19,380 nucleotides of DNA. Origin: Xanthomonas cassavae CFBP 4642 (lineage in GTDB: Bacteria > Pseudomonadota > Gammaproteobacteria > Xanthomonadales > Xanthomonadaceae). The DNA lies in contig NZ_CM002139.1 of assembly GCF_000454545.1 (NCBI RefSeq), positions 421,709-441,088 on the forward strand. The letters are read 5' to 3'. The notes beneath the pieces were generated by a model that worked only from the letters and a program-made list of their open reading frames with translations, did not search any database and had not been told where the DNA came from. The translations under genes were made by a program, and so were the position numbers. Shown piece after piece: positions 14,107-16,299 of this stretch. Numbering within the stretch: the first letter of the stretch is position 1; every line of letters starts with the position of its first letter.

Positions 14107-16299
14107 ATGAGCGAACAACTTCCCCTGCTGATCGAACTGGGCACCGAAGAGCTGCCGGTCAAGGCGCTGCCGGGTCTGGCGCAGGCGTTTTTCGATGGCG
14201 TGCTGCACGGCCTGGAAAAACGCGGCGTCGCGGTCACCCGCGGCGATGCCAAGCCGCTGTCCACCCCGCGCCGTCTGGCGGTGCTGTTGCCGGGCGTGGC
14301 CACCGAGCAGCCCGAGCAGCGCTCCGAAGTGCTGGGCCCGTATCTCAACATCGCGCTGGATGCCGAGGGCCAGCCGACCAAGGCGCTGACCGGTTTCGCC
14401 GCCAAGGCCGGGATCGACTGGACCGCACTGGAGCGCACCAGCGACGCCAAGGGCGAGCGCTTCGTGCACCGTGCGGTGACGCCGGGCGCGCGCACCGCCG
14501 ACCTGCTGCCCGACATCCTGCGCGAGGCGATCGCCGCGATGCCGATCCCCAAGCCGATGCGCTGGGGCGCGCACGAATACGCCTTTGCGCGGCCGGTGCA
14601 ATGGCTGGTGCTGCTGTTCGGCGGCAGCGTGGTTCCGGCCGAGCTGCTGGGCGTGCGTGGCGATCGCCTCAGCCGCGGGCACCGTTTCATGCATCAGGGC
14701 GAGGTATCGCTGGCGGCACCGGGCGACTACGTCGAGGCGTTGCGCGCGGCGCATGTGCTGGTGGATGCGGACGCACGCCGTGCGCGCATCGTCGACGAGG
14801 TCGAAGCCGCCGCCAGGCAGGCCGGCGGCAGTGCGCGCATCAGCGACGACAACCTGGAGCAGGTGGTCAACCTGGTCGAGTGGCCGTCGGCGGTGCTGTG
14901 CAGTTTCGAGCGCGACTTCCTGGCAGTGCCGCAGGAAGCGCTGATTGAAACCATGGAGATCAACCAGAAATTCTTCCCGGTGCTGGACGACGGCGGCAAG
15001 TTGACCGAGCAGTTCATCGGCATCGCCAATATCGTCTCCAAGGACGTGGCCGAAGTCGCCAAGGGCTACGAGCGGGTGATCCGTCCGCGGTTTGCCGATG
15101 CCAAGTTCTTCTTCGACGAAGACCTCAAGCAGGGGCTGCAGGCAATGGGCGAAGGCCTGTCCAGCGTCACGTATCAGGCCAAGCTGGGCAGCGTGGCCGA
15201 CAAGGTCGCGCGCGTGGCGGCGCTGGCCGAGGCGATCGCACCGCAGGTCGGTGCCGATCCGGCGCAGGCGCGTCGCGCTGCGCAGCTGGCCAAGAACGAC
15301 CTGCAATCGCGCATGGTCAACGAATTCCCGGAGCTGCAGGGCATTGCCGGGCGTCATTACGCCAAGGCCGCCGGTGAACCGAGCGAGATTTCGCTGGCCA
15401 TCGACGAGGCCTACCAGCCGCGTTTTGCCGGCGACGACAGCGCACTGTCGCCGCTGGGCAAGGTGCTGGCGATTGCCGAACGGCTGGATACCTTGGCCGG
15501 TGGCTTTGCGGCCGGCTTGAAGCCGACCGGCAACAAGGACCCGTTCGCGCTGCGGCGCAATGCCCTGGGGTTGGCGCGGACGGTGATTGAGAGTGGGTTT
15601 GATCTGGATTTGAAGGCGACGCTGGTGACTGCGGTCAAGTTGCTGCCGTGGGATCGCCTCGTGAGAAAAGCGGCGCTGAAAGACGAAGAAACGATTTCTG
15701 CTATCGACTCCGCGCAATACGCACAGCTCGCTTCTGAAATCTTCGACTTCATCCTCGACCGCCTACGCGGCTACTACGCAGACAAGGGCGTTCCTGCCAC
15801 GCACTTCAATGCGGTCGCCGCATTGTTCTCGGTCGCGCCCGAGGGCGCTCCTACAGGGCTCGTAGGAGCGCACCTGGGCGCGACCCACGGCTCCCTCTAC
15901 GACTTCGACCGCCGCATCGATGCCATCGGCATCTTCGCCACGCTGCCCGAAGCCGAAGCCTTGGCCGCAGCCAACAAGCGCATCCGCAATATCCTGCGCA
16001 AGGTGGAAGGCGAGATCCCCGGCGACATCGACACCAGCCTGCTGCGCGAACCGGCCGAAGAAGCGCTGGCCGAAGCGGTGGAAGCGGCCATCGGCGATAC
16101 CGGCGATGCGCTGCACCGCCACGACTACGTCGCCGTGCTCGCGCGCCTGGCCCGCCTGCGCCCGCAGGTGGATGCGTTCTTCGACGGCGTGATGGTCAAC
16201 GCCGACGACGCGCAATTGCGCGCCAATCGGCTCGCACTGCTGAAGAAACTTGGGGACCGCCTGGGCAGCGTCGCCGCCATCGAGCATCTGTCCAGCTGA
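14107..16299 (+). CDS. glyS: Glycyl-tRNA synthetase beta subunit, with an in-frame repeat insertion
   Basis: GlyS is the large beta subunit of tetrameric glycyl-tRNA synthetase and supplies most tRNA contacts. The 730-residue protein starts MSEQLPLLIELGTEELPVKA and ends in an anticodon-binding region (about 600-730, with EALAAANKRIRNILRKVEGE and VDAFFDGVMVNADD). It is longer than E. coli GlyS (689). Much of the excess lies at about 570-597, where a REP-like palindrome (15832-15884) is read in frame between HFNAVAAL and SLYDFDRRIDA, which are adjacent or nearly so in relatives I recall. Residues about 494-550 use many A/T-ending codons, including AGA, unlike the rest. ATG 14107 is preceded by AAAGG at 14092-14096. 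The frame is intact, so the enzyme is probably functional. Confidence 0.95.
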   Translation: MSEQLPLLIELGTEELPVKALPGLAQAFFDGVLHGLEKRGVAVTRGDAKPLSTPRRLAVLLPGVATEQPEQRSEVLGPYLNIALDAEGQPTKALTGFAAKAGIDWTALERTSDAKGERFVHRAVTPGARTADLLPDILREAIAAMPIPKPMRWGAHEYAFARPVQWLVLLFGGSVVPAELLGVRGDRLSRGHRFMHQGEVSLAAPGDYVEALRAAHVLVDADARRARIVDEVEAAARQAGGSARISDDNLEQVVNLVEWPSAVLCSFERDFLAVPQEALIETMEINQKFFPVLDDGGKLTEQFIGIANIVSKDVAEVAKGYERVIRPRFADAKFFFDEDLKQGLQAMGEGLSSVTYQAKLGSVADKVARVAALAEAIAPQVGADPAQARRAAQLAKNDLQSRMVNEFPELQGIAGRHYAKAAGEPSEISLAIDEAYQPRFAGDDSALSPLGKVLAIAERLDTLAGGFAAGLKPTGNKDPFALRRNALGLARTVIESGFDLDLKATLVTAVKLLPWDRLVRKAALKDEETISAIDSAQYAQLASEIFDFILDRLRGYYADKGVPATHFNAVAALFSVAPEGAPTGLVGAHLGATHGSLYDFDRRIDAIGIFATLPEAEALAAANKRIRNILRKVEGEIPGDIDTSLLREPAEEALAEAVEAAIGDTGDALHRHDYVAVLARLARLRPQVDAFFDGVMVNADDAQLRANRLALLKKLGDRLGSVAAIEHLSS
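15832..15884 (+). repeat. REP-like palindrome inside glyS
   Basis: The left arm (15832-15854, GTCGCGCCC...GCGCTCCTAC) and right arm (15862-15884, GTAGGAGCGC...GGGCGCGAC) pair at 20 of 23 positions around a 7-base loop. The GTAGGAGCGC/GCGCGAC pattern is typical of REP elements in Xanthomonas and related genera, and one arm recurs at 8769-8790. It is translated as residues 576-593 of GlyS (VAPEGAPTGLVGAHLGAT). Confidence 0.85.

Follow-up and report, generated by a model that had tools for sequence, protein, structure and literature searches.

The glyS gene of the Xanthomonas genome that supplied the window (the whole stretch of 19,380 nucleotides of DNA analysed) contains two inverted REPs of the GTAG type, which are read in frame as an extra segment of the glycyl-tRNA synthetase beta subunit. 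Two observations are new here: this loop of GlyS is filled in five genus-level groups, and an arm of the insert matches a recurrent REP class of its host in all 11 filled genomes checked. Hereafter, G000 denotes the source genome, g1 its genus and the other g numbers further genus-level groups. Taken together, the data make it likely (probability of roughly 0.8) that a resident GTAG REP pair lies in frame in a tolerant loop of GlyS, where it encodes a predicted disordered peptide, and that this loop has been occupied in several genera.

The elements considered, in coordinates of the window, are the following:

13984 to 16299, plus strand: glyS open reading frame, glycyl-tRNA synthetase beta subunit (open reading frame list; PF02092, E 7.5e-187; PF05746, E 1.9e-8)
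15826 to 15891, plus strand: extra segment FSVAPEGAPTGLVGAHLGATHG, replacing the RPA of the empty site (comparison with empty relatives)
15831 to 15854, minus strand: left REP arm, reverse complement GTAGGAGCGCCCTCGGGCGCGACC, reading ..VAPEGAPT (0 mismatches to the degenerate REP pattern)
15855 to 15861, no strand: loop AGGGCTC, 7 nt, between both GTAG heads (inverted-repeat scan)
15862 to 15885, plus strand: right REP arm GTAGGAGCGCACCTGGGCGCGACC, reading VGAHLGAT, exact class A (0 mismatches to the REP pattern)
8767 to 8790 (G000:C6:430475-430498), minus strand: further REP copy, intergenic after tatC and outside glyS (pattern match; TatC at 7925-8659)

The protein analysed starts at 14104 within the glyS open reading frame. 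An inverted-repeat scan of the window listed the glyS palindrome first among eight inverted repeats, with arms 88% complementary and their heads pointing inward, confirming that the palindrome is real. The original prediction had placed it within the glyS frame, which holds for both arms, and had given the arms 23 bases; they comprise 24 nt each. It had likewise noted that one arm recurs in the gap 3' of tatC, which is the case, with the copy beginning two bases before the predicted start at 8769. Among sister species, the loop between the GTAG heads is 7 or 10 nt long and variable in sequence. A second inverted repeat, with 17-nt arms that are 94% complementary and 1 nt apart, lies at 2824-2858 of the window, downstream of rdgC (1737-2642).

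Both arms carry, without mismatch, the hallmarks of GTAG-type REPs: a GT(A/G)G head, a GA, which has been described between head and palindrome for such REPs (PMC2817692), and an imperfect GAGCGC...GCGCGAC palindrome. The right arm is identical to the REP printed there for X. axonopodis pv. citri 306 (BMC Genomics 11:44, 2010). A genome-wide search, which had been proposed for recognising a mobile repeat, covered 5.27 Mb and, at up to two mismatches, returned 132 sites for GTAGGAGCGN7GCGCGACC but 14 for the reversed pattern used as a control, as expected of a mobile-type REP with many genomic copies. Moreover, a profile match to a Y1_Tnp (RAYT-type) transposase (E 4.3e-7, G000:C6:1805505-1805741) has REPs of the same kind on both sides, at 1805020, 1805062, 1805211 and 1805917, an arrangement like that of the Xanthomonas REP/RAYT system in PMC2817692. 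A RAYT transposase would thus be the probable agent that mobilised the glyS REPs.

Unlike the REPs treated in PMC2817692, those of glyS sit in coding sequence and pair inward. Among the 29 REP pairs of G000 with a gap of at most 30 nt, 28 face outward and the glyS pair is the single inward one; it is therefore not the usual unit of that genome, and with 7 nt between inward heads it departs from the canonical REPIN, whose heads point outward across a short spacer. All 15 other genomes searched contained inward pairs, with gaps of 4-34 nt, and inward orientation as a hallmark of glyS alone, valid within G000, was dropped for the family as a whole. A base-composition rule was applied to 16 loci (L289-L304) holding 26 inward pairs, of which one, glyS itself (L299), lay in frame in sequence that looked coding on both sides. 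Among 95 distinct REPs (pattern matches in the fetched G000 loci, part of the 132 sites), four, namely the glyS pair and a recB pair, lie in coding-looking frames with at least 50 codons on either side; a fifth in-frame candidate, close to the end of an open reading frame (L203), is doubtful.

Comparison of GlyS across the genus, the check proposed for an insertion, separated filled from empty sites. In 27 of 35 genus genomes, FNAV and SLYDF are separated by 25-26 residues; seven show an empty form with six (AELRPA type), and one (G019, L033) retains a 10-residue remnant, apparently a deletion that removed most of both arms. As relatives without the element read straight through (AELRPASLYDF), glyS carries a net in-frame insertion of 19 residues (57 nt), close to the predicted 18 or so. 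The element is thus an in-frame REP within a known gene, missing in relatives. The six-residue form also prevails among named relatives in Stenotrophomonas, Pseudoxanthomonas, Luteimonas and Lysobacter. In the distant relatives parsed, the site was either unbroken or occupied by REP-derived inserts of different classes or, in a few cases, by inserts with no clear REP source; the same residues without an insertion, that is, the peptide without palindromic DNA, which would have made the match a coincidence, were seen in none of them. In a protein search, the best 120 of 5229 matches, many named X. arboricola, cover the insert region at 99-100%, a list that cannot show absence of the insert. These results support the proposal that a mobile REP-type repeat was inserted in frame and is read as an additional GlyS loop.

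The site was then followed in other genera. A GlyS family search of 395 genomes gave a match in 388, from which 40 loci were fetched, mainly because of apparent inserts and including all 20 g7 genomes; the filled shares outside g1 and g7 are therefore no estimates, and several g14 rows are metagenome bins. The site was parsed in 153 of 154 rows (L153 was left out), and L154 gave no GlyS frame. REPs were found in the loop in g1, g7, g14, g17 (L182) and g28 (L183): 15 of the 20 genomes of g7, which includes X. bonasiae, are filled, further REP inserts occur in the Lysobacter-like g14 and in G319 (g17), and G390 (g28, L183) has a single in-frame REP of its host's own GTAGGAGCGCCTTCAGGCGCGAC class. 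In the paired cases the heads face inward and the right head, where intact, reads GTA/GTG GGA, in a comparison of insert orientation whose site pattern left out 25 of the 154 rows. Two REP-rich genomes nevertheless have an empty glyS: G032, where class A has 155 sites, and G062, where class B has 108. The gene is also empty in G198, which has one class B site.

Eight of 59 rows with at least 19 residues show no REP head motif (L029, L179, L180, L181, L184, L186, L187 and L189). The g1 member, L029, has a right arm one mismatch from class A. The other seven carry inserts of 19-27 residues at the site with no clear REP head, possibly decayed REPs.

The REPs found in glyS were next compared with those of the host genomes. 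With up to two mismatches allowed, three g1 genomes contain 73, 126 and 155 sites of class A (GTAGGAGCGCACCTGGGCGCGAC), G390 contains one and the other ten of the 14 genomes contain none; class B (GTAGGAGCGGCTTCAGCCGCGAC) has 147-524 sites in four g7 genomes, 108 in G062, 169 in G390 and none in G000; and sites of class C (GTAGGAGGGGCTTCAGCCCCGAC) number 66 in G319 and 22 in G094, the class B and class C counts overlapping because these classes differ at two positions. The glyS copies of G000 and G001 have a right arm identical to class A and a left arm with three mismatches. Relative to class B, G164 shows no mismatch in the left arm and four in a decayed right arm, G142 none and two, and G300 and G282 none in the right arm, the left arm having been lost. 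Both arms of G319 are identical to class C, and the right arms of G094 and G146 are one mismatch from it and carry the GAG tail that further REPs of both genomes have; support in G146 is thin (five class C-type sites, glyS being one). In G047 the left arm is one mismatch from class B and the right arm two from class C, and in G390 the left arm is identical to GTAGGAGCGCCTTCAGGCGCGAC, of which that genome holds at least 31 exact copies. Hence each of the 11 filled genomes checked has at least one arm within two mismatches of a REP class that recurs in the same genome. Furthermore, 25 of the 27 filled g1 copies lie within two mismatches of class A and 14 of the 15 filled g7 copies within one of class B. 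Classes A, B and C differ among the filled hosts; in the genomes compared, the REP class in glyS follows the host.

In the reading proposed here, two GTAG REPs of a resident class, inverted and with heads inward, are inserted in frame in a loop of the C-terminal, tRNA-binding part of GlyS; the peptide that they encode is under weak constraint and predicted to be disordered. Selection would purge insertions that shift the frame, add a stop codon or upset folding, so that insertions in tolerant loops would persist, and resident REPs have taken the same GlyS loop in several genera. Tolerant loops that are occupied again and again, or overwritten, by resident REPs offer the most likely account, and repeated insertion may be preferable to conversion of an old copy.

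The alternative that survives best, and which we regard as possible but clearly less probable, is a single ancestral insertion that was either inherited and lost in many lineages or passed on when glyS segments were transferred, and whose arms conversion has since replaced with the current REP class of the host. It would explain why all groups use the same codon interval and why the paired cases are all inward. The flanking residues ALFS and THGSLYDF are common to g1 and g7, whose occupation may, on this sequence evidence, represent one shared event; the part of glyS upstream of the site varies across species as a patchwork of unrelated alleles, which points to recombination; and the two arms of L032, their letters changed, agree at 23 of 24 positions, as expected of conversion. 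Against it, the empty sites of other genera are a plain six residues, whereas the recognisable deletion (G019/L033) leaves ten, and G390 holds a single REP rather than a pair. With the insert excluded, a GlyS tree of 140 rows requires 18 or more switches between the filled and the empty state. Placing the 17 REP-bearing rows of a 48-row subset in one clade was rejected (p-AU 1e-54), as was a clade of g1 and g7 alone (p-AU 1e-5), a test with which a single old insertion accompanied by losses or transfer is nonetheless compatible.

The extra loop had been placed between HFNAVAAL and SLYDFDRR, and both the sequence comparison and a structural model agree with that position. An AlphaFold2 model of GlyS (50 GlyS sequences; mean pLDDT 89.6) renders the insert, as anticipated, as a low-confidence coil between two helices (565-575 and 598-611), with pLDDT below 50 at residues 579-591; judging from this coil, the loop is probably solvent-exposed. 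The closest solved structure is that of E. coli GlyRS with tRNA (7yse), and the C-terminal HD and anticodon-binding domains have been assigned to tRNA binding (PMC9908026).

Protein constraint on the insert is weak. The dN/dS ratio is 0.79 in the 27 g1 inserts, compared with 0.04 in the preceding 24 codons and 0.06 in the 100 codons that follow, and 0.60 in the 15 g7 inserts versus 0.19 downstream. These values, together with the very variable length and sequence of the insert, its pLDDT below 50 and its absence from seven of 35 genus genomes, make it very unlikely that the peptide is a selected new feature of GlyS, such as a contact loop, an idea favoured by the frame having been kept in 27 of the 35. 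The loop is probably one that GlyS tolerates without gaining from it.

It is very unlikely that the palindrome is retained for an mRNA hairpin controlling the translation of glyS or the stability of its transcript. Its predicted fold is very stable (-48.5 kcal/mol, z -6.9; none of 200 shuffles equally good), and four-fold site difference is low in the right arm (0.047; 0.146 in the left arm), which would fit constraint on the DNA itself too. These divergences come from all 27 g1 copies, a set of 19 well-pairing copies having been dropped as circular; around the arms the values, from small samples, are 0.31-0.46 upstream and 0.07-0.31 downstream, and the six codons directly downstream of the right arm are nearly as low (0.074). 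Thus, the right arm looks young, homogenised or constrained as DNA. In seven of the 27 g1 copies, however, the arms pair at just 13-16 of 24 positions, about the maxima of 14-16 reached by 20 shuffles per decayed copy, and the insert still has 26 residues; the loss is mostly due to decay of the left arm. L030 carries the same insert as L028. Several g7 copies have lost one arm, and the hairpin is missing from the seven empty genus genomes. As pairing decays with the frame kept, the hairpin is not required, and a conserved RNA element is unsupported. Finally, a chance palindrome in GC-rich coding DNA, a suspicion that the seven other inverted repeats of the window might raise, is ruled out by the match to the 132-site genomic repeat and by the lack of the segment in empty relatives.

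RecB shows the same pattern as the GlyS loop. The recB gene of G000 carries an outward REP pair in frame (G000:C6:275157-275220). RecB was matched in 34 of 35 genus genomes, and the region, parsed in 26 of 30 genus loci (L239-L268), is 34-126 residues long, with at least one exact GTAGGAGC in frame in 21 of the 26 and three REP units in L265 and L268. Outside g1, where 11 of 14 loci were parsed and three g14 loci left out, RecB of five g7 genomes contains class B-like REPs; no REP head was found in the RecB region of G198, G096, G319, G390, G233 and G062, in which the region is short. Overall, in the recB loci L239-L268 and L269-L274, RecB of Xanthomonas has one to three in-frame REP units after an RIRERL motif, with tandem expansion in some species. 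More tentatively, the GlyS and RecB loops could be long-lived coding nests of REPs, in which residence in an essential gene would shield the repeat from deletion and successive classes would replace one another; if so, the loop of an essential enzyme would track the repeat parasite of its own genome.

In-frame REPs in this genus have already been published, so the kind of phenomenon is known. The passages of BMC Genomics 14:522 (2013; PMC3733652) on this subject describe GTAG REPs in frame within known genes, as is the case in glyS, single or paired and mostly adding 20-30 residues; the genes include tRNA synthetases of X. oryzae, as well as recB of X. campestris and X. oryzae with REPs at about the same site, and loop insertions are suggested to be possibly neutral. 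The glyS gene may be among those listed in the supplement of that paper; a literature search combining 'repetitive extragenic palindromic' with 'glycyl-tRNA synthetase' found no paper with both. The palindromic elements of Rickettsia (RPEs) are, by their description in PMC3733652, likewise palindromic repeats in frame in genes of functional proteins, and differ in being a separate repeat family of other bacteria. Those passages list in-frame REPs gene by gene, with neither a one-site comparison across genera nor a match of coding REPs to the host class, both of which are made here by tracing one GlyS loop and one RecB region across genera. The filled, empty, decayed and expanded states of both loops can be traced, with host REP classes counted, so that the origin and turnover of protein segments derived from mobile DNA can be tested directly, as can the target choice of REP mobilisation.

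Immediately upstream of the insert lies another variable region of GlyS, at about 15604-15744 of the window and in the same region of L009-L046, where it spans about 34-76 residues. Several unrelated alleles with conserved flanks occur there among g1 genomes, and the upstream allele and the REP state do not fully correspond. Residues 524-530, within this region, are the model's one other stretch with a pLDDT under 50.
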